A DNA stretch of 64,000 nt, taken from Bdellovibrionia bacterium (GTDB taxonomy: Bacteria; Bdellovibrionota; Bdellovibrionia; Bdellovibrionales; JAGQZY01). Shown piece after piece: positions 47,295 to 63,907 of the stretch. Position numbers and translations under genes: made by a program. The notes below the pieces were generated by a model. It did no database searches. It had not been told where the DNA came from and worked only from the letters and a program-made list of their open reading frames with translations. The stretch is taken from NCBI GenBank assembly GCA_030427805.1, contig JAUICP010000006.1:62001-126000 (forward strand). The letters are read 5' to 3'. Position 1 is the first letter of the stretch; each line of letters begins with the position of its first letter.

Positions 47295-50200
47295 TTACTC
47301 AACCGAAGCAGGGGCGCGACTCGAAGACGCCGAAAGCGCTTCCATCATGGCTTCGAGACGATCCATGCGGTTTTCTAGGCTCTCGTTCTTTTCTTTTAAT
47401 GACTTGATCTCTTGATCCTTTTTGTTCAACTCTTCTTTGAGTTTTGCGATCTCAGAATTTTGCTGAACATCGGTCGAAGAAATATTGATATACACATTTC
47501 CGCTTGCTAAGGCAAAACCCAGAGGTGCACCGTCATTGGCATAGGCAAAACCATTATGATAGTAAACTTGATCGGATTGAACCGGAAGTTGTCCAACAAG
47601 ACCAACGAGAACGACATTATCTTGATTTTGTAGTTCAGCATTACCGATCACACCGGGGTTGGTAGATACAATACCAAGAAGGGCATCACCCTTTTGGTAG
47701 CCACGGGCGAGTCCTGTAGCGGGGTTCAAACCAACCAGATCACCTGGCTCTAGCTCTTCTTCTGCGGCAAAGTATTCCGCGTAATCGGCACCTTCTGAGT
47801 TGTAGGCCACAGCTGATATCTCACCACCAGCAGGCACAGTACTACAGGTCCCATCGCCGGTAACACAAAGTCCTTTACCGGCTCCAGAGCCATCAATGTG
47901 GACAAGGGAATCGGGAGAAGTCGTTCCAATACCAAAGTTTCCTGATACATCGATGCGCATTCGCTCAGCGTAGGATGATGCGCCCGTTTGCTGAACCCAG
48001 GCGTAGGATGGAGAGTAAGTGCCTGCTCCAGAGTTCGAGAAGGCTCCCGTAAAGAAATACTGATCATTGGCTGAATTTCGTACATTGTGGGTTATAAAAA
48101 CTGAGTTTGAATCAACAAACCAACTGTTTTCTAAAAAGAGATGATGGTCCGGAGCAGACCCAGGAGTGTACGCAGTATTTTTGCCTTTAGTAACAAAGAA
48201 GTTACCACTTTTAATGTCGGCAGAAAAATTACCCGAACCAAACCCACCGGCTCCATCTCCGACTTCTAGAAGAATACTTCCTCCAGTATTCGAAGCGGGG
48301 CCCGTCGAATCTTGAGCGTAAAGCTTTATTCCTTTACCCTTCGTACTAGCCGGAGCCGCCGAAGGCTCGACGTGCAGTATAGAATCAGGAGCTGCTGTTC
48401 CAATACCAACGTCACCGTCGGCATCGATGCGAAGAGACTCAGATCCAGAGTTAGAAAATGCAATTTCATTAGAGGCTGGCGTGAAAAGACCTGTATCGGG
48501 ATCGTTTACAAATGTGAATGCGGGGTTGGCTTCGACACCGGCAGCAGAGCGCATAGCAGCCGAGCCAAAATCTTTACCTTCAAATCGGTTTTGATTGACT
48601 TCAAACTTCATACTTCCCGCAGCAGTAAAAGCCATTTGATCCGCGGCAATTCGATAAATCCCTAAATCTTCATCTCCGTCAAAAGTGATCCCAGGTGCTG
48701 CGGCTGTACCAAAATCAGCTGTGAACTGACCAGTCATTGGAATCGTACCATCCGCCAGAAAATCACCACTTCCACCACCGGCGGCACTCCACGAAAGTAC
48801 ACCTGATCCATTGGTTGTTAAAACATGCCCGTTTGATCCATCAGCCGCAGGTAACGTGTAAGTCTGGGTCCCGGTTACTGTAGCTGGCGCCTTGAAACCG
48901 ACGTATTCACCACCCGTTGCATCTTGTAAGCGAAGTTCTTTTTCGGCCAAAATATTAGTGTGTCCCGAATTATCAATGGTCATACGTCGATTTGCTTCAG
49001 CGCTTCCATCGGTGAAAAAACTAATCGAACCGGAAACTCCGTTGCTTCCAGAAAGAGATAAGCCGTTAGTACCACTGGCACTAATCAACGAAGAGTTTGG
49101 AGAATTAGCACCCGTGCCAGTACTACTTGAGCTAATTTGTGTAAATGAAAAGTTCGCCGAGCTCGTACCTAAAATCATTTGCGAGTCAGCATTGGCTCCC
49201 GCAGTAAAGTTATCGACCCTAAAGGTCGTCGTTGCATTTTGATCTTTTCTAACATGAAGTTCTTCTGTTGGATCGACACCAATACCGAGGCGTCCAGTAC
49301 TATCGAGAGTCATTCTTTCGGTCGCACCTGTTGCAAATGAAATCTCGTCGATACCAGATCGATACATTCCCGTATCGTCATCTCCATAGAAGGCAAACGA
49401 AGGCTGAGCCGCTCCACCCGGCGCCGCCATACTAATTGAAGCCGCACCCGTTCCGCCACTACCATATAAAAAGACGGCGTCCATGACCATCACAGCTGAA
49501 TTATTGCGCTCAAACTCTAAGTCAAATCCATCGTTCGTACCGATCGTCATGGTAGCACCAAAGGAGTTACCATTATTATTGACATCACCACTTCCGCCAC
49601 CGGTGGCACTCCACGAAAGCACACCAGAGCCGTTTGTCGTTAAGACTTCACCATTAGAACCATCGGCCGCTGGTAGAGTGTAGGTTTGACTTGTCGTTAC
49701 CGTTGCTGGAGCCTTGAAACCAACGTATTGGCCACCGGCAGCGTCTTGCATTCTAACTTCATTTTCTTTGAGTAAATTAATATCTCCCGATTCTGTTATT
49801 AAAACAGCATTTTCAGATGACGTCGTACCACTTGGAGTCACACTGAAACGCAAGCCCGTACCGCGGTCTGTGGCATTGAAGTTTTCAATGGCAATGACTT
49901 CCATTCCACCACCCGTATGCCAGTTGGGAGTCGTATTATAAGCGCCAAGTCCTACAAAACTTGCCAGGACATCGCCCGTTTGGGTTTCTGTCGGTAAAGC
50001 TTTTGTTCCCCGACTGGTTCGACCAGCAAACGTAGGAGCACCGAGAATCGTTGCACCCTTATGATGATCGACGATGAAGCCAGGGTATCTCGCAACAGTT
50101 GAATCTGTATTTGTTACTTTAACTGCGACCGTCGTATCGGTTCCCTCTACATGGAGCTCCTCTTCGGGAGCGGCAGTACCAATTCCGACATATCCCGTTG

Positions 50201-53200
50201 AGTAATCCCAAGTCTGAAAATATCCGCCAGAGTTATTTCTAATATGCAGGTCTTCAGTGTCATTACCGCTAAAGCCAAAATGCCATTTATCGAAGGAGGC
50301 TTGTCGGAAGCGCACTCCCATATCGTATGACCAATTGTTATTTTCGAGAATTAAGTCGCCTTCACCATTGACAGTGTGACCACTGTAGACATGGAACTTG
50401 GCTCCAGGTGCTCCATTTCCAATCCCAACATTGCCGTCGGTATCGACAAAGACGCCTTCACTTCCACCATCGTTACTGAGGTAGTTTCCGTTTAAGCGAA
50501 TGTTGCCCGTCATTGACACGGTACCATTCGCTAAAAAGTCACCTGCGCCAGTCGATTGCCATGATAAAACACCACTGCCATTTGTAGAGAGAACTTGTCC
50601 GTTGGTTCCGTCGGCTGGTGGTAATGTATAAACACCAGATCCAGTAACCGTCGCCGGCGCTCTAAAACCGGTATACTGGCCGCCAGAGTCATCTTCGAGG
50701 CGAAGATCTGTACTCGAGTGAATGGCCACATAGTTATCATAGGCAATTGACATCGCTGTTCGTGGCACACCTTGATCCGTTACATTGAACTTAAGGTCAG
50801 CCGTACGATTGGCGTCAACGGCATTGGTCCAAGAAGAAGAAATATTTGCTTGCTCACGCATGAGGCTGGTTGAAGTTTCAGCCTTAAAAGTCATCTGTGC
50901 ACCAAGGCCTGGTCCACCCCCAGCGCCTCCATTTTCAGCTTCAAGAGATAAAATTTCATAAATTGCGTTTGTTAAATCTTGCTCTTGTACAGTAAGGCGC
51001 GATGATGGAGCCTCTGTACCGATACCGACGTCAAGATCCTTGGTGATCCGCATGGACTCGTTATAACCTGTAGCAGCCGTTTGTTGTCCAAAGACTAATT
51101 CTGGGGTGAAGGTTCCGTCGTTTGAAACAGCACCTATATAGGCCGTTTGTTGAGTTCCCGTGCTATTTTCGACACTAAATACGGCTAGCGAGGCGGCACC
51201 CGCATTTTCAGAAGTGTTTTCAATCGAAAGAGTTGGAGCATTAGGAGTGTAAATGGCCGCACTACTAGAGACATAACCACTATTGATCGAATCGTTAATA
51301 TGAACAGAGGATAAAAACGTCGTATAATCCGGACCAAACCAAATGGAGTCGGCACCATTTGAACTATAGGCCGTCCATCCATCGCCCCCCATGTTATAAA
51401 ATCCGGTATCTTGATCATTTGTATACGAAAGTGAAGGTGCCGCAGCGGATCCATCTGGCAGGTCGAGTTGCCCGGTCATAGCGACACTACCATCGGATTC
51501 AAAGTCTCCACCCGAAGCTGGAGTTGTCCAAGACATGACTCCTGTACCATCGGTCGTTAAAACTTGCCCGTTGGTTCCAGGGCCATTTGGTAATGTAAGG
51601 TTTGTGTCAGCCGTTACATCGGCTGGAGCAACGAGAGCGACATATTCGTTGGTACCAGTATCGTAAAGGCGAATACGATTGTGATCGAGCATATTAAGAT
51701 TACCGTCGTCACCGAGTTCCATTTGTGTTTTGGTGGAACTCGCTCCAACTTCGCGGGTGATAAATTCTAATTTAGTAGGCGCGCGATTGGCTCCAGTGTC
51801 GGCCGTCGCCGTCGCTTGAATTCCCGCAGCTCCTCGGTAAGTACTAGAGGTATCATAAGAATGAAAGAACAAAGACCCTACTTTATCGCCAGTCAAAACA
51901 GGTGTTAGCGTATTAGCATCTCCTCGACTTCGACGTAAAATTAAATCCGGGCCTTGGTTGAATATATCGTTGTGCCCATCGAAATAAAAATCTCTATTAT
52001 TGTCATCTGTAATATGTACAGCACCAATGGGGCTCGGATTAAATATACCGAGTTGAGCCGTATCCCGTTCAGCGTGAAGTACCGTTTTTGAAGTTCCTGC
52101 TTGAATTCGATTCAACTGAAAAGAATTATCCGATTCATCGTGGTGAACCATCTCAAAACCATGATTATAGTTACCACTATTATAGCCACGCATACTGATG
52201 CTTATATTCGTATCATCAACATTACCATTGAGTTGTAAATTGGGGTTGGTCCCTTCAATATGAAGAATCGAACTCGGGTCAACACCAATACCGACACGGC
52301 CAACACTTGTAACACGAACCCGTTCAGTTCCACCCGTCGTAATCGCCACATTGTCAGCAGCCGGGCTAAAGAAACCGGTATTGGCATCAGTGCCAAAACT
52401 AATACCAGGATTCCCTTGGTTACCTAGTATGGCGTCAATTTGCCCTGTCATTGCCACTGAACCGTCAGATTCAAAGTCACCGCCACCACCAAGGCTCGAC
52501 CACCCTAGTTGACCCGTACCGTTGGTAGAAAGTACCTGACCCGAAGTTCCGTCCGCAGGAGGTAAAGTCCAAACAGTCGTAGTCGTCACGTCATCTGGTG
52601 CACGTAGCCCCACATAATCTGTTCCAGCCGAAGCATCCAGTTCGTATAGGTAAAACTGGCCACCATCACCGGCAGCTGTCCCTTTCGGATCAATCTGAAC
52701 AACACCGTCTACCTGAAGTTGCGACTGAACCGAACTACTAGAGAAGTCACCAATCCCCACCTTACCATCTTTTTGGATTTTGACAGCTTGGGTTTCACCA
52801 CCCGCTCCACTATCAACCCAAAAGGTCATGTCTGCTGGAATGTTTGCACCACTCGGAGTTCCGTTAACTTCCATCTGTATATAACCAGCTGTGTAGTAGT
52901 CCGGACCACCGGTGTTTTCGAAACCTCGGAACATAAAGGTACCGATGACATCGTTATCAACAACGGATGTGGGCGCACCTACAGTTCCATTTTGCCTTGC
53001 CACGGCGATGGAACTCTCAAAGGCTGTGGATATATTGTATTGTTCAGTAGCGCCAGCAGACAAAACGGTTAACTCCCTAGTCGGAGTAGTAGTACCGATT
53101 CCTACTTGTCCCGATGAATTGATCGTCATCGCGTCAGCTCCGCCAGTTACAAATGTCAATTCATCGGCTGTGTCAGAATACAGACCCGTATCCGAATCAG

Positions 53201-55193
53201 CTGCAAAAGAGTAAGATGGCTGGGCCTCAGTTCCGTTACTACCACGGAGTAATACGGAATCAGTGCCCGTTCCTCGAAGACCACTGTTAGTAACGTAAAA
53301 TCGTCTCGTACCACCAGTGGTAAACGCAATTTCATTGGCACTAGAACTATAGATACCTGTATCAGCATCCCCATTAAAACTAATACTTGGAGCTGCATTA
53401 GTACCCTGCTCTAAGTTCACAATTCCATTATTATTTAAATTTAGATCACCGCTCATTGCCACAGAACCGTCGGATTCAAAATCACCTGTACCAACAGAAG
53501 CCCAACTAAGTACTCCACTGCCGTTCGTTTGCAGAACTTGTCCGTTTGTTCCGTCGGCTGCAGGAAGCTCCCAAATTATGGATGCAGCATCACCAACGGC
53601 ATCAGGGGCGCGGAATCCAACATAGTCAATTCCACCCGCTCCAATGTTTGCCGCAAGTTCTTCAAAGACAATAGCTCCACCTTCTCCAGCTGCAGTCCCT
53701 TTCGGACCAGAAACGATGGTCCCTTCGACATCGAGTTTTTCGATAGGAGACGTTGTACCAATTCCGACATCTCCAGTTGAGGTAATGCGCAATCTCTCTG
53801 CAGGAGAGCTACCATTTTCTCGTGTGGCAAAAGAGAGATAACCCGCATAATTACCACTAATCGCATTTTCTTTTAATCCACCAATGTTAGCAAAGTCCCT
53901 CATTTGCACGCCGTCAGAGCCGCCGAAACCGAGAGTTCCACCGACTCCAACACCTTGAGCAGAATTAGAATTAATACTGACTAAACCTCGAGCTGTCGTA
54001 ATCGGTACAGCCGTACCATTCACCTCAAGAAGCGACCCTGGGTTATTGGTTCCAATTCCAACCTCTCCAGTCGCATCCACAAATACACCTTCATTACCAC
54101 CGTCACCACTCAAATAGTTTCCATTCAGTGGAATGTTACCTGTCATGGCAACACTACCGTCAGATTCAAAATCGCCACCGGTTGCATCGGTCACACAAGA
54201 CCAGGCATAAACGGGACCGGCACTCATTTGTAGTTTCTCAGAAGCCAAACAGTTAGGAACGGCGTCAGCACCCATGGCATCACCTGCTGCAGTACCAATA
54301 TCAAAACCACCAATGACTTGGGCCGCAGCACCATCCCAGATTTTGAGTTCATCACTTGTTGAATTATACCAAGTCACACCTTCATGGCCTGCCGTTAACC
54401 CCGGAGGATCAGTCGCATAAGTCCCAAGGTGTAAGTAGGTATTAGCTGACATGGTAATAAAACCGGAGTTGAGAATGTCATTTCCACCCATGTCGATATC
54501 GCCCGTCATAGTTCCACCGGCCAAAGGAAGTTTTGTTGCATCTGTAGCCGTCGGAGTATTAGCGACCCAGGTCGTTCCATTCCAAGTCAGAACTTTTCCG
54601 ATATCAGCTCCACCGGCCAAACCCGAGAGGCTTGCCGAATCGGCTGCAGCTCCCCCGATGTAGGTATCTGAGTAATTCTTTGTAGCAGCGTCTGTGGCGT
54701 TGGTAGGATCCGCTAGATTTTGCAGGGCTTGGTTATTGAAATCGACGGGAGCTGTCGGCGTAAAGTTGGCTCCAGCCGGGTCTGCGTACTGGGCACTCGT
54801 ACCGTTAATCAGGTTCATGAGTTCGGTGTAGTTTCCGCCACCAAATACATTTTGTAAGTTGGTTTGATCGATGTTGTTAGCGCCATCTACGGATAAAAAG
54901 TCATTTGCTCCATGCCCTTCTAACTTTGTGGCATAGCGAGCGTAGGGTACCGAGGCCATGTTGATGTTTTCAGAAAACTGAATAACACCCGTACCTTCGT
55001 TGATCGTTAAACGAATGGCGCGTGCATCACCGGGGGCAGCATCATAAGCTGTTCCCGAATCACAGGTCAAAGGAGTTACATTCCCTAAACCATTATCAAA
55101 GGCTTGATCGAGTGTTGAAGTATCTTCGTAGTCCGTTCCAGCCCTTGCACCAGAACCCACTTTTAAGTTGAAAACTCCGGCAGATGTCGACAT
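47295..55193 (-). CDS. Giant tail-fibre-like surface protein (main open frame)
   Basis: 2,632 residues of repeats. Eleven VGIGTxxPxxxLxV-type elements (VGIGTTSPIEKLDV, VGIGTAAPDSILHV), seven DTGxYxxxxxEIAFxTGG elements, and six junctions APATVTxxxxYTLPAADGTNGQVLTTNGSGVLSW followed by GDFESDGSVAMTG. Such repeats occur in phage-tail-like and Bdellovibrio adhesins and build trimeric shafts. The end has GADYAEYFAAEEELEPGDLVGLN and a leucine-zipper coiled coil (IAKLKEELNKKDQEIKSLKE), with no S74 autoprotease motif. ATG 55193 is only the first start in this frame; the open frame extends to about 55320 with natural N-terminal sequence and no start, so the true gene begins at 55401 behind a frameshift. 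Confidence 0.85.
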   Translation of the reverse strand: MSTSAGVFNLKVGSGARAGTDYEDTSTLDQAFDNGLGNVTPLTCDSGTAYDAAPGDARAIRLTINEGTGVIQFSENINMASVPYARYATKLEGHGANDFLSVDGANNIDQTNLQNVFGGGNYTELMNLINGTSAQYADPAGANFTPTAPVDFNNQALQNLADPTNATDAATKNYSDTYIGGAAADSASLSGLAGGADIGKVLTWNGTTWVANTPTATDATKLPLAGGTMTGDIDMGGNDILNSGFITMSANTYLHLGTYATDPPGLTAGHEGVTWYNSTSDELKIWDGAAAQVIGGFDIGTAAGDAMGADAVPNCLASEKLQMSAGPVYAWSCVTDATGGDFESDGSVAMTGNIPLNGNYLSGDGGNEGVFVDATGEVGIGTNNPGSLLEVNGTAVPITTARGLVSINSNSAQGVGVGGTLGFGGSDGVQMRDFANIGGLKENAISGNYAGYLSFATRENGSSPAERLRITSTGDVGIGTTSPIEKLDVEGTIVSGPKGTAAGEGGAIVFEELAANIGAGGIDYVGFRAPDAVGDAASIIWELPAADGTNGQVLQTNGSGVLSWASVGTGDFESDGSVAMSGDLNLNNNGIVNLEQGTNAAPSISFNGDADTGIYSSSANEIAFTTGGTRRFYVTNSGLRGTGTDSVLLRGSNGTEAQPSYSFAADSDTGLYSDTADELTFVTGGADAMTINSSGQVGIGTTTPTRELTVLSAGATEQYNISTAFESSIAVARQNGTVGAPTSVVDNDVIGTFMFRGFENTGGPDYYTAGYIQMEVNGTPSGANIPADMTFWVDSGAGGETQAVKIQKDGKVGIGDFSSSSVQSQLQVDGVVQIDPKGTAAGDGGQFYLYELDASAGTDYVGLRAPDDVTTTTVWTLPPADGTSGQVLSTNGTGQLGWSSLGGGGDFESDGSVAMTGQIDAILGNQGNPGISFGTDANTGFFSPAADNVAITTGGTERVRVTSVGRVGIGVDPSSILHIEGTNPNLQLNGNVDDTNISISMRGYNSGNYNHGFEMVHHDESDNSFQLNRIQAGTSKTVLHAERDTAQLGIFNPSPIGAVHITDDNNRDFYFDGHNDIFNQGPDLILRRSRGDANTLTPVLTGDKVGSLFFHSYDTSSTYRGAAGIQATATADTGANRAPTKLEFITREVGASSTKTQMELGDDGNLNMLDHNRIRLYDTGTNEYVALVAPADVTADTNLTLPNGPGTNGQVLTTDGTGVMSWTTPASGGDFESDGSVAMTGQLDLPDGSAAAPSLSYTNDQDTGFYNMGGDGWTAYSSNGADSIWFGPDYTTFLSSVHINDSINSGYVSSSAAIYTPNAPTLSIENTSENAGAASLAVFSVENSTGTQQTAYIGAVSNDGTFTPELVFGQQTAATGYNESMRITKDLDVGIGTEAPSSRLTVQEQDLTNAIYEILSLEAENGGAGGGPGLGAQMTFKAETSTSLMREQANISSSWTNAVDANRTADLKFNVTDQGVPRTAMSIAYDNYVAIHSSTDLRLEDDSGGQYTGFRAPATVTGSGVYTLPPADGTNGQVLSTNGSGVLSWQSTGAGDFLANGTVSMTGNIRLNGNYLSNDGGSEGVFVDTDGNVGIGNGAPGAKFHVYSGHTVNGEGDLILENNNWSYDMGVRFRQASFDKWHFGFSGNDTEDLHIRNNSGGYFQTWDYSTGYVGIGTAAPEEELHVEGTDTTVAVKVTNTDSTVARYPGFIVDHHKGATILGAPTFAGRTSRGTKALPTETQTGDVLASFVGLGAYNTTPNWHTGGGMEVIAIENFNATDRGTGLRFSVTPSGTTSSENAVLITESGDINLLKENEVRMQDAAGGQYVGFKAPATVTTSQTYTLPAADGSNGEVLTTNGSGVLSWSATGGGSGDVNNNGNSFGATMTIGTNDGFDLEFERNNSAVMVMDAVFLYGSGGTGAASISMAAPGGAAQPSFAFYGDDDTGMYRSGIDEISFATGATERMTLDSTGRLGIGVDPTEELHVRKDQNATTTFRVDNFTAGANADSQMILGTSSANFSFTQISSSSTGTGANSPNSSLISASGTNGLSLSGSNGVSGSISFFTDGSAEANRRMTIDNSGHTNILAEKELRLQDATGGEYVGFKAPATVTGTQTYTLPAADGSNGHVLTTNGSGVLSWSAAGGGSGDFLADGTIPMTGQFTADFGTAAAPGITFDGDEDLGIYRIAADQMAFTAAGSMKFEVNQNRFEGKDFGSAAMRSAAGVEANPAFTFVNDPDTGLFTPASNEIAFSNSGSESLRIDADGDVGIGTAAPDSILHVEPSAAPASTKGKGIKLYAQDSTGPASNTGGSILLEVGDGAGGFGSGNFSADIKSGNFFVTKGKNTAYTPGSAPDHHLFLENSWFVDSNSVFITHNVRNSANDQYFFTGAFSNSGAGTYSPSYAWVQQTGASSYAERMRIDVSGNFGIGTTSPDSLVHIDGSGAGKGLCVTGDGTCSTVPAGGEISAVAYNSEGADYAEYFAAEEELEPGDLVGLNPATGLARGYQKGDALLGIVSTNPGVIGNAELQNQDNVVLVGLVGQLPVQSDQVYYHNGFAYANDGAPLGFALASGNVYINISSTDVQQNSEIAKLKEELNKKDQEIKSLKEKNESLENRMDRLEAMMEALSASSSRAPASVE

Positions 55194-55935: not shown

Positions 55936-56376
55936 CTAAAAAATAAAGGGAATGATTCGCTTCGTGCCCTTTTGATACTTCTTAAAGGATTTAAAGCGAG
56001 TTCCCAGTTCTTTTTCTTCGATTATGATTTTTATCACCAGAGTTCCAAGGAGTAGAAAAAACACTATCGAGTAAATCCCGTTCATTTCAACAAGGACTTT
56101 TGGGAGAAAAATTATGAGCAGGCTCAAGTACATGGGATGACGAACCCATTTATAGGGACCCTTTTTAACGAACTGTGCCGACTTTTTAAGGTGAGGATAA
56201 ACCGAAAAGGACTTACCCATAACGACTAGGGCCCAAAGTCCCAGAGCCAATCCCAACAAAAGAGCTAGAAACTCAACAAAATAGGTTTCCTTTGAACGGA
56301 CAAAGAACAGGTAGAGCATAGTTAAAACCTGAATGCTCACCAGTGAGGTAGAAATAATCTTCTTTTGTCGGTCCAT
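55936..56376 (-). CDS. Isoprenylcysteine carboxyl methyltransferase-family membrane protein
   Basis: 146 residues, four membrane helices and the methyltransferase end GPYKWVRHPMYLSLL and IIIEEKELGTRFKSFKKYQKGTKRIIPFIF, where the RHP and E.EL...F..Y motifs bind S-adenosylmethionine. The bacterial members methylate unknown, often lipid-like, substrates. It is first of the minus-strand run before the lipoprotein; 240 bases separate it from the plus-strand cassette. Confidence 0.85.
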   Translation of the reverse strand: MDRQKKIISTSLVSIQVLTMLYLFFVRSKETYFVEFLALLLGLALGLWALVVMGKSFSVYPHLKKSAQFVKKGPYKWVRHPMYLSLLIIFLPKVLVEMNGIYSIVFFLLLGTLVIKIIIEEKELGTRFKSFKKYQKGTKRIIPFIF

Positions 56377-56616: not shown

Positions 56617-57654
56617 ATGAAGTTAGATAGAAGAATTCAAATTTTACACCTTATCATTTTGGCTATTGTCATTAGCCTCGCGTCTTCCCATGCCGCTTAC
56701 TCGCAAACGCCCGATGCCTCACCGAAAACTACGACTATCGATTATTCGCAAAAAGCCCGATCTTCTAAGAAAAAGCTCTACGCTCAATCGAAAAAGCGTT
56801 TTAAAAAACGAAGTCGTAAAGCCAGTCGTCGTTTACGAAAAAAACGGAGCTATAAATCCAGCAAGAAAACTTTTGTCGTCAAACGACCTAGCCTGAAAAG
56901 CCAAATAAAGCGAAAAAAACAACAAAAGTTCTCCCTAGCCTTTTCTACAACCTATTCTGAATCTTCCATTAATTTTCAAGATGGAAGAGATAGCCAGAGT
57001 CTTTCGGGGCAACTCTCAGCTGGCTACCAGTTTCATAAAAACTTTAAACTGGGTGCTAGTATTGATGGCTACCAGGACCTAAACAAGCGATCTGAAGATT
57101 ATGGTGACCTCCATGCCTTTGACCTCAACGGGCAGCTTCCAGGGCTCATCCCCAAAATGGCTGCATGGCATACCCTGACGCCAATTCTTGGTTTGAGCCT
57201 GCCTCTTAGCAAAACTCTGACAGAATATGACTCCTTAAACCTCTCTTTGTCGGCGGGGTTATCCAACCTTATTCGCATCCCTAGTACGAAGCTTTCTTTG
57301 AGCTACTTGATTAACTACGCCCGAAATATTCACGAATTCGAAGAATCCCTCCGAGGCTTTGATAACAAACAACACATACTTACTAACAGCTTTGGTGCAA
57401 GCTACCAGATTTTGGACAAGCTTTCTCTTACTCTCAACTTCGCACTGAGTAGTCGATGGACCTATGAGTCGGTTTACGATTCTGTTTTCTCATCGAGCCA
57501 GACATTAAAGTACAACCTTCACAAAAATATGAGTTTAAAGTTCGGTCACATGAACAGTGGACAAACCCTCCACTCCGATGGTCGCTCGAGCAATATACAG
57601 CTTTATAACGAAAACTCTTCGGGAGTTTTCTTGGGGATTAGCGCATGGATTTAA
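56617..57654 (+). CDS. Outer-membrane barrel protein with Lys/Arg/Ser-rich linker
   Basis: 345 residues. Signal peptide about 1-29 (LAIVISLASSHAAYS), then a basic stretch from about 47 to 108 (ARSSKKKLYAQSKKRFKKRS ... KSQIKRKKQQ) without acidic residues, then roughly ten to twelve amphipathic strands (FSLAFSTTYSESS, LSGQLSAGYQF, LSLTLNFALSS, SLKFGHM) ending GVFLGISAWI. The end is not the usual Phe. Its TAA overlaps the ATG region of the metalloprotease gene, so the two are coupled. Function unknown. Confidence 0.75.
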   Translation: MKLDRRIQILHLIILAIVISLASSHAAYSQTPDASPKTTTIDYSQKARSSKKKLYAQSKKRFKKRSRKASRRLRKKRSYKSSKKTFVVKRPSLKSQIKRKKQQKFSLAFSTTYSESSINFQDGRDSQSLSGQLSAGYQFHKNFKLGASIDGYQDLNKRSEDYGDLHAFDLNGQLPGLIPKMAAWHTLTPILGLSLPLSKTLTEYDSLNLSLSAGLSNLIRIPSTKLSLSYLINYARNIHEFEESLRGFDNKQHILTNSFGASYQILDKLSLTLNFALSSRWTYESVYDSVFSSSQTLKYNLHKNMSLKFGHMNSGQTLHSDGRSSNIQLYNENSSGVFLGISAWI

Positions 57655-60600
57655 TGAAGAAACTTCTAAGCAAAACTCGATTGATGGTAATAGCATTGCT
57701 AGCAATGGGCCTTATTTCGTGTACCGAAAAAAGACCCGCCAAGTTCCCGGATGGGGCTGGCGACAATATCTTTTCGATCAGCACTCTAAAGAAAATGCGA
57801 GTCACTGGCAGCACCGGACAAGAGGCCGATGCCCGCATCTATCAAAGTAGAAATGTGTTTCGCCCACAAGTTTTAAGTCAATTCCAAGCTTCGAGTGTAC
57901 CCGGAGCCTTAAAACCCCTTTTTGACGAGCTTTACCTAGAAACGAGCACTGGCCAATCACTTGAATTCAACCTTGAGGTGAACGAGAAATACATAACGGT
58001 TTACCAGGTTCTTAATGAAGAGGTCGCCGCTCACATTAGAAACAAAGCCATCGTATCGAGCCACAATAACTCCCAGGTCTATCCTGCCTTCATGTACCGG
58101 GTCCAATCCTACGGTAAAACTAAAAGAATCAAAAACACCATCGACGAAGAAACGAGTCTTTTACGCCTTCAAGAAACATCTTGGGAAAACGCAACCCACC
58201 TGAGATTCTCACCTTCCGTAAGAAGTCGAATCATGGTGGACTTCCCTCAAACCATTAAACCTCAAATGTTTGGACTCGAGCAGTTCAACGGAATTCAGTT
58301 TGAAGTCACTCTTGCTGAGTCCGAAGAGATGTTTAAGGAGAGTCCCTCATTCGGTAGACTCCTTCCCGTAGCCAGTAGTAGTGCTCCCGAGCAGATGAAA
58401 CTGCTTCTTGATGAACTCTATCTTCCTGGAACTCCAGGGGAGCAAATTCAATTAAAAATCGCATTTGATAGCTCCTATATGACGGCCTATAAAGTCAGTA
58501 GCAACCCTGAAAATCTTTCGTCCATTCAGCAACAAATCAGTATTCAATCTGAAGATGGAAAGACCATCACTCCCCTTTTTAAAGTTCCCGTCATCTCTTA
58601 CGGAAAAGTCGCACAAATAAAAGATGATCAAGGATTCAAAGGCCCCACTCTTTACCTAGAAGAGTCGAGCTTTTCTGAGGCAAGTCACGTACAAATTCCC
58701 CTGAATAAAGACCGCAGGCTCGCCGTCGACATGCCCCTTAACACCGATGATGCCGGCAGAGAAATTCTGAACTCGCGGGATTTCGACCAGCGCATTTTTA
58801 CGGTCGGACAATTTGAGAGCGTGTCGGGTCTAAATATCAATTTAGATGATAATGCACGAATATTAACGCGCACATTTAGCAGTGGCCTTTATATTTTTAA
58901 AATAACGACTCTCAATGATTCGAGCATTACTGAGCGCAGAAGGCAGCTTCTCGCTCAAGGTCAAGATCAAGAGAGAATCCGTCGATGTACCCCAGAAGAA
59001 GCCTCTCAGTCAGGACTCAATCCCGGCAATTGCGTGGTTGTTATATCTCATAGAGTTCCCATCCAACCCATTGAAGTCTTTTTGCCTTCAATTCAAGCCG
59101 ATAATGATATTCAATCTCCCACTCTTTCAACAAGACGGGCGCTCAATCCGGGAGCTCAGTTTTTAATGATTATCGATTCGAGTGCCACTCCTGAAGTTAT
59201 TAGAGATGGTCTCACGGGTGACCTCAGAAACACCCTCATCGTCGATCAAATGAGAAATCAAGAATTTCTTTTTAGAAGAACACTACTCGATTCTCCAAAT
59301 CGCTTTCCACTGACCTTTCCTGGTCTCAATGGTCAACTCGAGATCGTGAAGTTTTATTTTGAAGAAGAGCGAGTCGTAGTAAAAAGAGCCTATGCTCTCG
59401 ATCCCCATCCTAATAATACAGAAACGGATTTTGAAGAACTCATTTCCCTTCCAGCTCGTTATTATGTTCGAAGGAACCAAAACGAACGGGGCGAAGACCT
59501 CTGGTCTGATGAATACATCGAGAGTTCACCCCAGGCTGAAGGTGCAATCGCCATCATCGACTGGAGACAAAATACAATTCCAATCGTTGCCTCTCCCCTT
59601 TCTTACTTTGGGGCAGGTCAGTGTTTAATTCGCCAGGCGAATAGTACTGTGGACGATATTGACATGCGCCTACCCTCTGATGGAGTTCTTAACTTCTCTC
59701 TTGAGGGAACCTATGCCGTTCACCCTTACCCCGGTTGTAGTTACCAGTGGCTGACCTCTGGCTTAATTCATTATTGGTATCCGTCACAAGCGAACTTTAC
59801 CTTCAAGGAACGTATCTCTTTTAAAAAGTATAATGGAGAAAACGACGTTCCCGACATCGAAGCCATTCCCTACGAGGCCCAACGTCGGCTCGGATACGGT
59901 ATTTTCACATTTAGAGGCAAGAATCCCAATGAGTACAATAATATCGGACGCATTGGCACAAGACCACCCCTTCAAATGCAGCATAGTTTTAGAAATGGCA
60001 AAGTTATTACCTATACTCTTGCAGGTCTTCCGACCAATGATGGGCGTCTGCGCGCAGGCCTTATTGAAGCCACTCAAAGTGTCATCGAAGACTGGAACAG
60101 AACCCTTAAGAAGGCTTTTAAAGACACTCCCCTTGAGCGCCAGGGTAACTACTTGGCTCTCGAAGTTCTAGAGGACGATTCGGCCCAACTGGGTGACCTC
60201 GATAAGAACTTTATTTACTGGCTCGACAAAGATCTTCGCATGAAAGTTCTAGGAATGGTTAACCCTTCTCCGAATCCGCGCTCTGGAATTTTTGAAAATT
60301 CAGATGTCATGGTTTATGGCGGAAACATTCGCAACGTTTTAGAATGGGAAAAGGATCGCGCTCTCGCCCGTAAAGAATACAACGAAAACATGAAGTATCG
60401 AGAGACCATTGAACGTCTGAATCAACTTGAAGATATCCAAGAACAAATCGATGAGGAACGTCGCGAAAGAGTCCGTCAGGCGGGCGAGAGAATGCGCGCT
60501 GAAATGGAAGCTCTTGAGGCGAGAAGAGATGGCGAGGCTGGCGACAGCCAAGAGGTCGCTATCCCTTGGTATTCTGATATGGATTTCACAAGCTTTAATC

Positions 60601-63032
60601 CAACTATCAATTATGTAGAGCGACTCGACACCCTTCCACAAGAGAGCCGAGATCGAAACATTTTTCAGGCAACTCTTAGTATGAATAGAAATTTGCTGGA
60701 TATTAGAAGCCTCGAGGTTCCGAACCATCAAGTAGGCACTGAAGACCCTAAACTTAAAAGAGAGCTCTTCTTACTCAGGACTTTACAAAATACCCTCGAA
60801 GAAGGCGCACTGACTGACGAAGCAAAAATTGGAGAAAGCCTCGGTCGTGAATTAATGGAATACATCCGCACCAGTGAGCGTTTGGATCAAAATACAAAAC
60901 AAATGGCACTTTTTGAAATTCAAAAAGAACTTTTCACCAATGAAGTTATTAAAAATATTAATTCTGGCCACACGGTCCTAGAAACCAAAGAAATCGGCTA
61001 TTCGGAGCGCTATATCGATGGTAATATTACCGACCTTTTAGTTTCAAGCTATCGCAAGACTCTGAGCCATGAACTGGGCCACGCCTTCGGCCTTCGTCAT
61101 AATTTCTTGGGTTCCTATGACAAAAAGAATTGGAACTTTGATGACGAAAACCCCGAAGAGGTCAACCGTAACTACACCACAGTTATGGATTATATTTCAG
61201 ATGCCCATCTAGAGTATAACGGCCCCGGCCCCTATGACGTTCAAGCGGTTCGCGCGGCCTATACGGGACTTCTAGAGGTTGATCAGAGTCGAATAGCTGA
61301 TAGTGAACAAAATTGGAATATCGTTAACAATCGTTTTATTCAGATTTCAGATATTAAAGAACAGCTCGATCTCGAGCACTGGGAAGAAATCGAAACCTCA
61401 CATATTAGGCAGATACCCAACAAGCGTTATATGTACTGTAGTGATGAAGATACTCGTCGCTCGCCTATTTGTAATCGTCATGATCTCGGCACGACACCCG
61501 CTGAAATCGTGAGTAATGTTATTGATGACTATCACGCCTTTTACAGCCTTACGAACTTGCCAAAGGATCGCATTAACTTTCAGTGGTATCAAGTCTATCG
61601 CTACATCTATCGGCTCTACTTTTATTTTATTCGTATTAGGCACTTTCTTGACGAAACAGCCTTCCGAATTCGTAGCTTACAGACTGAGGCACAAACACGA
61701 AGCGAAACTGATCTCGGCTTGCGCATGCAGTTTGGTGCCATCGAAGACGAATTTGGTTCAGCGGCAATACTTGGTCGCGACTTTTTCCATTCGATTATTC
61801 GAACCCCCGAGCTAAATCCTTTACTCGATATCGAAAATCGCTTTAAAGAAGTCACAATTCAGCCTCAGGATCTTCCGGAAATCACCTATGTTGTCGAACG
61901 CAAACCTTCGAGAGATCAGTGGCTACAAGGTTCATTGGGACGCCTTAAAGTCAGAGGAATCGAGTTTGATCAAGTGATTGCCATGATGATGCTCACTACT
62001 CGACGCATTGGTATTCCCGAGTACGATCAGCAACTCGTTCGATTCTCCTACCCAGATTTGGAAAAAGTAATTTCAGGAAGCGCATTTGAATCTGATACCA
62101 TTCAGTTAATCATATCGATTCTCTCCGAGAGACTCCGGCCTGCCTTTTTAACGCCGCAAAAGACCCTAGAGATTGTCCCCGATGCAACTTTTTCAGCCTC
62201 GTCCAGTGAACTTGTCCGCATCTACTCGGTCATTGCTGCGATGGTTATGCTCGACACCAATACAATTGAGGCCACTGACAATTTTTCTAGCTTCTTTCGC
62301 TTTGGCAGTATTTTAGGTCACGAAAGCGAACGACTTTCTGGAGTTCCAATGCTCACACAACTTGGTGCGAACCCAGACTCTATCAATACCCTTAAGTATT
62401 GGCCATTTGATGGGGCCATCGGATCTTATATGATTCACAGGCAAGCTGCTAACCTGAGATTTATGATCGAGCACGAAAACGAATTCCGTCCGCGCTTTAA
62501 AGAGTATTTTATTACCCACCTCAGAAAACAAAAAGCTGAACAAGAAATTCGCGCCGGAAGAGAAGAGGAAGTTTACACTCTCGATGGTGGTGCAACTCAA
62601 ACAGAACTCGAAGCTCTCGACGAGCGAAAAGAACAAATTCGAAACGCCATCAATGAAGGGCTTAGGAACTTTCCAGAAAATACTGGATCGAGAGAGGCGC
62701 GGCTTTTCCTCCAAGAAATGGACAAGCTCATTCAAACGGCCGTCCAGGTCGTTGAAATTCAAGAGGATGACAATGTTCCTCTCCAAGAAAAATTTGAGTT
62801 TATACTGGCCCAGCAAAACCGTATTAAGAATTTTATTCGCCTCAACCCAGGCATTTGGATTGCCTATGCGACTCTACTCAAGGACGACCTTGGCCTTCCG
62901 AGACCATTAAAGAATGCTCTAAGTATTCTATTGAGCGAAAGCTTTATGGAGCTTCAGTACGCATACCTATTTAGTAATATCCAATTTATGAATATGTTTC
63001 TTTACTTTACTCACCCGGAGTACGTTCAATGA
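57645..63032 (+). CDS. Giant metzincin-type zinc metalloprotease lipoprotein
   Basis: 1,795 residues. Lipoprotein signal VIALLAMGLISC (Cys26). Residues about 83-205 and 245-368 are a clear internal duplication: SSVPGALKPLFDELYLET and SSAPEQMKLLLDELYLPG, YRVQSYGKTKRIK and VPVISYGKVAQIK. A charged coiled-coil stretch lies near 900-970. The protease core has HELGHAFGLRHN from 1142 (HExxHxxGxxH, three His ligands) and the Met-turn YTTVMDYIS with M1181, like the DUF4953 zinc-dependent metalloproteases, which are much shorter. ATG 57645 has GGGGA eight bases upstream; ATG 57654 is an alternative. The stop overlaps the next gene. Confidence 0.88.
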   Translation: MDLMKKLLSKTRLMVIALLAMGLISCTEKRPAKFPDGAGDNIFSISTLKKMRVTGSTGQEADARIYQSRNVFRPQVLSQFQASSVPGALKPLFDELYLETSTGQSLEFNLEVNEKYITVYQVLNEEVAAHIRNKAIVSSHNNSQVYPAFMYRVQSYGKTKRIKNTIDEETSLLRLQETSWENATHLRFSPSVRSRIMVDFPQTIKPQMFGLEQFNGIQFEVTLAESEEMFKESPSFGRLLPVASSSAPEQMKLLLDELYLPGTPGEQIQLKIAFDSSYMTAYKVSSNPENLSSIQQQISIQSEDGKTITPLFKVPVISYGKVAQIKDDQGFKGPTLYLEESSFSEASHVQIPLNKDRRLAVDMPLNTDDAGREILNSRDFDQRIFTVGQFESVSGLNINLDDNARILTRTFSSGLYIFKITTLNDSSITERRRQLLAQGQDQERIRRCTPEEASQSGLNPGNCVVVISHRVPIQPIEVFLPSIQADNDIQSPTLSTRRALNPGAQFLMIIDSSATPEVIRDGLTGDLRNTLIVDQMRNQEFLFRRTLLDSPNRFPLTFPGLNGQLEIVKFYFEEERVVVKRAYALDPHPNNTETDFEELISLPARYYVRRNQNERGEDLWSDEYIESSPQAEGAIAIIDWRQNTIPIVASPLSYFGAGQCLIRQANSTVDDIDMRLPSDGVLNFSLEGTYAVHPYPGCSYQWLTSGLIHYWYPSQANFTFKERISFKKYNGENDVPDIEAIPYEAQRRLGYGIFTFRGKNPNEYNNIGRIGTRPPLQMQHSFRNGKVITYTLAGLPTNDGRLRAGLIEATQSVIEDWNRTLKKAFKDTPLERQGNYLALEVLEDDSAQLGDLDKNFIYWLDKDLRMKVLGMVNPSPNPRSGIFENSDVMVYGGNIRNVLEWEKDRALARKEYNENMKYRETIERLNQLEDIQEQIDEERRERVRQAGERMRAEMEALEARRDGEAGDSQEVAIPWYSDMDFTSFNPTINYVERLDTLPQESRDRNIFQATLSMNRNLLDIRSLEVPNHQVGTEDPKLKRELFLLRTLQNTLEEGALTDEAKIGESLGRELMEYIRTSERLDQNTKQMALFEIQKELFTNEVIKNINSGHTVLETKEIGYSERYIDGNITDLLVSSYRKTLSHELGHAFGLRHNFLGSYDKKNWNFDDENPEEVNRNYTTVMDYISDAHLEYNGPGPYDVQAVRAAYTGLLEVDQSRIADSEQNWNIVNNRFIQISDIKEQLDLEHWEEIETSHIRQIPNKRYMYCSDEDTRRSPICNRHDLGTTPAEIVSNVIDDYHAFYSLTNLPKDRINFQWYQVYRYIYRLYFYFIRIRHFLDETAFRIRSLQTEAQTRSETDLGLRMQFGAIEDEFGSAAILGRDFFHSIIRTPELNPLLDIENRFKEVTIQPQDLPEITYVVERKPSRDQWLQGSLGRLKVRGIEFDQVIAMMMLTTRRIGIPEYDQQLVRFSYPDLEKVISGSAFESDTIQLIISILSERLRPAFLTPQKTLEIVPDATFSASSSELVRIYSVIAAMVMLDTNTIEATDNFSSFFRFGSILGHESERLSGVPMLTQLGANPDSINTLKYWPFDGAIGSYMIHRQAANLRFMIEHENEFRPRFKEYFITHLRKQKAEQEIRAGREEEVYTLDGGATQTELEALDERKEQIRNAINEGLRNFPENTGSREARLFLQEMDKLIQTAVQVVEIQEDDNVPLQEKFEFILAQQNRIKNFIRLNPGIWIAYATLLKDDLGLPRPLKNALSILLSESFMELQYAYLFSNIQFMNMFLYFTHPEYVQ

Positions 63033-63907
63033 AAAAACTTTTATCCATCCCCTTACTACTGCTATTGTCTTCAACAGTCTTCGCTGTGGACCTAGAGAGT
63101 ATAACCGAATTCCCCTTTGTAGAATGTGGGATGCAGTTTAACCGCGTCTTTGTCGAGTATGAACAAGGTGGCGATATGAGCGAAATTGAACTGACCCAAA
63201 GTGAAAGTCGCATTCAAAATATGATGATCGGAAAACACGAGTGGTTTGTTCCCAGTGTCGAAGAACATTCCGGTGGACGATTGGGAGGAGCTGGTCAAGA
63301 GGATGCCGCCTATAAAGTCAGCATTATTCTCAACCTTCACCTCAATAGTTCGCAATGGATTCGCTACGGCGGAGAAGGCAGCCCAAGGGGCCATCGATTA
63401 AAGGCCTATATCACTGTCTCTAGACGCTTAGAAAATGGTAAATACAAAACCGTGGCCCGAGGTATGCGCGATAGTGATGAGATTTGGACTAAAACGCAAC
63501 TGACCGAGGTCAGCGCTAACCGTATGGTTCAACACGTCTTTCGCGCCATCAGAAACCCCGAGGTCTTTGATTACATCGATCCCCAGAGTGAAAAGTACGC
63601 CCTTGGCGACAATAACGATGTTCTTCTTCAATTCGAAAGAGAAGGTCCCGAATTTGGTGTTGAGGCTGCTGGGCAAGCAGGCATTTTCCCAAAAGCACTT
63701 TTTGATAACGTCAATGTCTTCTGTAACGGTGTCTATCGACAAAATGCCATTGCTGAAGACTTGTGGCTCGTGCTTGGTGTGAGCCAATCCGGTGAACTCA
63801 GAAATGCCCCCCAAGGAATCAAAGATATTTGCGAAGCCAAAGTCCCCGAAGTGGATATGGACTTCTTTACAGAAACCTATGGAACGACAGAAGAGCGAGG
63901 AAACTAA
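63029..63907 (+). CDS. Exported protein coupled to the metalloprotease
   Basis: 292 residues. Signal peptide 1-19 (LLSIPLLLLLSSTVFA), then strand-rich sequence with FPFVECGMQFNRVFVEYEQGG and VSIILNLHLNSSQWIRYGGEG, three further-spaced cysteines (VFCNGVY, DICEAKV), and an acidic end. Not recognised. Its ATG overlaps the protease stop by 4 bases, so it is made together with the protease; an inhibitor, substrate or partner role is possible but unproven. Confidence 0.68.
   Translation: MKKLLSIPLLLLLSSTVFAVDLESITEFPFVECGMQFNRVFVEYEQGGDMSEIELTQSESRIQNMMIGKHEWFVPSVEEHSGGRLGGAGQEDAAYKVSIILNLHLNSSQWIRYGGEGSPRGHRLKAYITVSRRLENGKYKTVARGMRDSDEIWTKTQLTEVSANRMVQHVFRAIRNPEVFDYIDPQSEKYALGDNNDVLLQFEREGPEFGVEAAGQAGIFPKALFDNVNVFCNGVYRQNAIAEDLWLVLGVSQSGELRNAPQGIKDICEAKVPEVDMDFFTETYGTTEERGN

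Follow-up and report, generated by a model that had tools for sequence, protein, structure and literature searches.

The gene for a 12-stranded outer-membrane barrel and the gene for a giant DUF4953 metzincin lipoprotein form a conserved unit in Bdellovibrio and its relatives. There is about an even chance that the two products also function together, as a surface metalloprotease coupled to a barrel. The operon has gained a third, overlapping gene, for an exported protein, in this lineage only. The three genes lie in a 64,000-nucleotide stretch of DNA, termed the window, on contig 11 of a 4.5 Mb genome whose order is the one holding Bdellovibrio, as judged from its named relatives. The features of the locus are as follows.

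56617..57654, + strand: barrel gene P0001, 345 aa; signal peptide, basic linker, and 12-stranded outer-membrane barrel
56707..56925, + strand: basic disordered linker of P0001, residues 31-103, net charge +28
56929..57648, + strand: barrel domain of P0001, residues 105-344, 12 strands in the AlphaFold2 model; best Foldseek match FapF
57645..57654, + strand: 10-base overlap of the barrel and protease genes, identical in the sibling genome G001
57645..63032, + strand: giant DUF4953 metzincin lipoprotein gene P0002, 1,795 aa
57720..57737, + strand: putative lipidated Cys26 and tag CTEKRP, a variant of C-[TA]-K-x-[RK]
57888..58247, + strand: N-terminal module of P0002, copy 1 (residues 82-201), not in aligned relatives outside the genus
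58374..58736, + strand: N-terminal module, copy 2 (residues 244-364), the copy common to relatives
60318..60965, + strand: helical insertion predicted ahead of the active-site helix (residues about 892-1107), low-confidence model and poorly conserved
61068..61100, + strand: zinc site HELGHAFGLRH (residues 1142-1152); all 13 aligned orthologues keep HExxHxxGxxH
61179..61193, + strand: Met-turn TVMDY (residues 1179-1183), Met1181 invariant in 13 orthologues
63029..63032, + strand: 4-base overlap of the protease gene and the third gene, identical in G001
63029..63907, + strand: third gene P0003, 292 aa; exported protein with no function assigned, lineage-specific

The sequence-only reading had described this three-gene arrangement, and its open reading frames and overlaps of 10 and 4 bases are confirmed. 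All three genes recur with equal overlaps in the sibling genome, whose protease is 97% identical to P0002. Between the two genomes dN/dS is 0.15 for the barrel gene, 0.03 for the protease gene, and 0.025 for the third gene, hence all three encode real, maintained proteins. Promoter and terminator scans at the locus gave site counts not above those of shuffled sequence.

Several nearby genes are of separate interest. A small ICMT/PEMT-type membrane methyltransferase is encoded divergently from the barrel gene (55936-56376, minus strand). Positions 47295-55193, also on the minus strand, encode a repetitive, fibre-like protein of 2,632 aa that has a weak Peptidase_G2-type match and a coiled coil near its C-terminus and resembles self-processing tail-fibre or predator surface-fibre proteins. 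Past the end of the window on contig 11, a 620-aa protein (L050:14632-16494) combines a signal peptide with a subtilase domain and, at its C-terminus, a PilZ domain (E=1.9e-14). As PilZ domains are normally cytoplasmic binders of cyclic-di-GMP, one in an exported protein is odd.

Conservation of the barrel-protease pair

The barrel gene lies directly upstream of the protease gene in 41 of 55 loci that were fetched by the protease alone and retain an intact protease start and at least 1 kb of upstream sequence. Such pairs occur in Bdellovibrio, Bacteriovorax, Halobacteriovorax, and Oligoflexia, and outside the phylum in Aeromonas (L100) and Ferrimonas (L107, L110). A separate phylum sample, chosen solely by DUF4953 match and length, contains the barrel at 11/12 long-protease loci vs. 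0/8 short-protease loci (p about 7e-5, hand calculation). Among 60 relatives, 39 carry both genes, nine the protease only, none the barrel only, and 12 neither (Fisher p=2e-7). The spacing is tight, with 71 of 86 pairs overlapping or no more than 100 nt apart. Matching of paralogues between the barrel and protease trees was correct in 2/2 genomes, which is too few to weigh.

Searches that start from the barrel find a protease downstream within about 2 kb in 52/79 cases and none within reach in 27/79, a few of the latter merely through a contig end. The barrel family therefore also includes uncoupled members. Three members without a protease (L177, L189, L220) are followed by a lipoprotein of roughly 220-240 aa, and another (L192:774-1694) by a 957-aa lipoprotein without a detected catalytic domain. 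One giant protease, in genome G058, has no adjoining barrel. Within Bdellovibrio proper, barrel and protease usually have a HAD-like gene and an antisense gene between them; the two lie about 0.4-1.8 kb apart there. One Bdellovibrio gene located between the two, 8 nt after the barrel (L038:4034-4822), encodes a 263-aa exported protein with the HAD-like motif FDIDWTT.

The window genome holds further DUF4953 loci. A second barrel-protease pair (L052:3809-9093; 334 aa and 1,420 aa) is very diverged from the window pair, and the gene 84 nt downstream of it is unrelated to P0003. Three more DUF4953 lipoproteins of about 1,230-1,260 aa (L051:2295-9595, L053:1143-8510, L054:5718-12963) are each followed by a lipoprotein of roughly 1,200 aa, overlapping or within 10 nt. 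A Pfam scan of one of these partners gave no match. These proteases belong to a separate clade and, with their partners, constitute a second undescribed protease-partner pair.

The protease, the barrel, and a candidate sorting tag

P0002 is a metzincin-type lipoprotein of 1,795 residues, as first proposed. Its lipobox GLISC ends at Cys26, the DUF4953 (PF16313) profile matches at 32.7 bits against a curated cut-off of 24.2, and the C-terminal catalytic part carries the metzincin signature of zinc site and Met-turn. Six further cysteines, forming three pairs, are invariant among the aligned orthologues. DUF5117 and DUF5118 are the usual companion domains of DUF4953 and were not treated as a defining feature; neither matches P0002 at E<=1. 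The literature searched holds no mention of DUF4953.

The protein had also been described as far longer than usual DUF4953 enzymes. This is true against the short DUF4953 proteins of the sampled relatives (719-896 aa), but the whole barrel-coupled clade is long, its full-length members spanning 986-2,148 aa with a median of 1,482. The extra length of P0002 has two sources, membership of this long class and a duplicated N-terminal module. The two copies are 31% identical over 121 aa, and the aligned relatives outside the genus have one. By sequence, no solved relative was found for the barrel or the protease family beyond weak metzincin matches. Foldseek of a protease model covering residues 237-1400 returned nothing significant, the metzincins fragilysin and ADAM10 appearing weakly at E about 0.4, and for the N-terminal half neither sequence nor fold searches found a solved relative.

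The AlphaFold2 model of P0001, built with a family alignment of 44 members, shows 12 confident strands behind the disordered linker, with barrel pLDDT mostly >84. The signal peptide and the closed, even-stranded barrel are those of an outer-membrane beta-barrel protein. The early description as a basic-linker barrel fits this one protein, whereas the linker is strong in this genus alone, two marine members have it in moderate form, and most of the family lacks it; it is not a family trait. The possibility that the linker serves to dock an acidic protease was rejected, as the charges of paired proteins do not anticorrelate (Spearman +0.23, the wrong sign). The N-terminus, inspected for a lumen plug, is disordered in the model and varies in length within the family.

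Pfam places no family above cut-off on P0001, giving only weak outer-membrane protein matches, and across the 44 family members weak matches scatter over outer-membrane families, KdgM among them. The PF13557 match of P0001 (E=0.095) is under the cut-off, leaving no family-level match to FapF/COG4313 by sequence. By fold, the best solved match is FapF, a 12-stranded polypeptide transporter (E=1.3e-9), followed by general porins, NanC, OmpG, KdgM, and a COG4313 channel. Matches to ordinary porins reach E about 1e-8, and a fold match does not equate to function. The DUF560 (Slam) profile matches neither P0001 nor any of the 44 family members.

The residues preferred behind the lipidated cysteine of barrel-coupled proteases are T/A, then K at +3, R/K at +5, and P/D/E at +6, with information content declining after about +8. 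The pattern C[TASQ]K.[RK] is present in 54/96 barrel-coupled proteases and in 0/100 other lipoproteins from the same loci, which served as background; it also occurs in 11/25 long proteases for which no barrel was detected. In P0002 the sequence is the variant CTEKRP. The residues just after the cysteine are a likely candidate for a sorting tag, although the pattern may stem from shared ancestry alone. A VWA search for the surface lipoprotein Bd0875, meant for reading its tag, did not reveal Bd0875.

Possible roles of the pair and of the third gene

The conservation of the pair, together with the nearly constant presence of the barrel beside long DUF4953 proteases and its absence beside short ones, suggests a two-component surface protease, a reading given roughly equal chances of being right or wrong. 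Both proteins would reach the outer membrane via Sec, the protease additionally through lipid modification. There the FapF/COG4313-like 12-stranded pore would anchor the lipoprotein or pass it to the outside, and the extensive beta-rich region at the N-terminus probably serves to hold the C-terminal metzincin or direct it at extracellular proteins. In predators, the target would be the prey envelope during invasion. The envelope features (signal peptide and barrel, lipobox, three invariant cysteine pairs) and the invariant zinc site and Met-turn favour this reading, as does the polypeptide transporter FapF as best structural match. Against it stand the 27/79 uncoupled barrels, the barrel-less protease of G058, the intervening genes in Bdellovibrio, and a tag that may reflect mere ancestry. 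The initial idea of a surface protease with a barrel exporter or anchor thus survives as a conserved pair (41/55 loci; 11/12 vs. 0/8) and not as a three-gene set. A more specific proposal is speculative and rather unlikely: that the barrel is the dedicated translocator of its lipoprotein protease of about 100-240 kDa, acting via the C-[TA]-K-x-[RK] tag, in a minimal two-gene secretion/display system that predators use on the prey envelope.

The link to predation comes from B. bacteriovorus. The pair is present in strain kdesi (L083) and in genome G031, which we take to be that of strain HD100. In the latter, the protease lies 39 ORFs before the L,D-transpeptidase (YkuD, Bd3176), which gives Bd3137 (3176 minus 39). 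FtsZ (Bd3189) follows 51 ORFs after the protease and a VWA/MIDAS protein (compare Bd3132) stands four before it, both consistent within one tag. By this gene counting, the HD100 orthologue of P0002 is most likely Bd3137, expected to be the ORF at 3041842-3046752. The two proteins align over nearly their full length at 28% identity, and both have a barrel upstream. Bd3137 differs in having one N-terminal module instead of two, a barrel about 1.8 kb upstream, and no P0003 counterpart. Bd3137 is reportedly one of 31 predator proteins present in killed prey (empty bdelloplasts) and is induced at 30 min of predation/invasion (PMC12546842, PMC11003981), with the caveat that part of the recovered peptides stem from broken predators (PMC11003981). 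As Aeromonas and Ferrimonas are not predators, their possession of the pair speaks against a role in predation alone.

Those non-predators also fit the main rival, in which protein outside the cell is cleaved by the surface protease and the resulting peptides enter through the 12-stranded barrel. KdgM and NanC are enzyme-coupled channels for oligosaccharides. The Foldseek matches of P0001 to NanC, KdgM, and COG4313 uptake channels, the weak KdgM matches in the family, and the barrels that lack a protease are all consistent with such a feeding pair. However, the barrel accompanies the long lipoprotein class only and is missing beside the phylum's short DUF4953 proteases. As the products of short proteases would suit a general peptide porin equally, this restriction counts against the feeding pair, which is possible but unlikely.

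A periplasmic location would give the protease a role in quality control, in which it would process or clear outer-membrane proteins while the barrel provides a docking site or is itself a substrate. BepA acting with LptD is a precedent, both genes are envelope-directed, and a lipoprotein may face the periplasm by default. Yet the size of the protease and its variable N-terminal modules better suit external targets, and peptides of Bd3137 have been reported in killed prey (PMC12546842, PMC11003981), leaving quality control improbable.

The distribution of P0003 bears on a three-gene machine in which it would be an inhibitor or chaperone of the protease. The 4-base overlap, the shared strand, and purifying selection on P0003 (dN/dS 0.025, window genome vs. 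sibling) are compatible with this, but for the inhibitor or chaperone role itself nothing speaks beyond the overlap. Pfam and NCBIfam searches gave no match for P0003. It is found in 2/141 genomes of the order and, among 241 sampled genomes of the phylum, in the query genome only, and no gene downstream of any other barrel-protease pair resembles it. Joint conservation of the three genes in relatives, on which the sequence-only reading hinged, holds widely for the barrel-protease pair and fails for the third gene. Absent at every other barrel-protease locus, P0003 cannot be needed for the core function; on its distribution (2/141, 1/241, no other locus) it was rejected as part of the system, and a three-gene machine is very improbable. 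That the pair is merely co-regulated and its proteins act independently, as the gene distances of about 0.4-1.8 kb in Bdellovibrio might allow, is scarcely credible given the strong co-occurrence and adjacency across long evolutionary distance.

Comparison with known systems

The C-terminal catalytic part of P0002 is like that of the DUF4953/Met-zincin family (PF16313), with HExxHxxGxxH and Met-turn. P0002 differs from that family in its much greater length, unmatched N-terminal beta-rich modules, a predicted helical insertion, and an obligate-looking barrel neighbour. P0001 shares a 12-stranded barrel with the amyloid exporter FapF (PMC5557850), its best structural match, and with COG4313 channels (PMC4493636). 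FapF is encoded together with a protease, FapD, which is a C39 cysteine protease (PMC5557850). Identity of P0001 to FapF/COG4313 is about 10%, however, with no family-level sequence match and no amyloid genes nearby, and no conserved N-terminal plug or coiled coil was evident.

If the barrel exports the neighbouring lipoprotein, the working would be similar to that of Slam (DUF560) translocators (PMC9090332), but P0001 consists of one short barrel, with neither a TPR domain nor a DUF560 match. The candidate tag is like the lipoprotein export signal of Bacteroidetes (Capnocytophaga), which also directly follows the lipidated cysteine and prefers K at +3 (PMC5080379). The Bacteroidetes signal continues with an acidic run, whereas the barrel-coupled proteases have R/K at +5 and P/D/E at +6.

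Taken as a pair, the two genes would make up an undescribed two-part surface protease. A giant unannotated protease of predatory bacteria becomes half of a conserved, testable unit, and its neighbour gains a candidate role. Provided that the assignment in HD100 holds, Bd3137 and the barrel encoded upstream of it are concrete candidates for causing prey damage during invasion. More broadly, the pair could serve as a model of large-lipoprotein delivery to the surface by a route other than those of Slam and Bacteroidetes.
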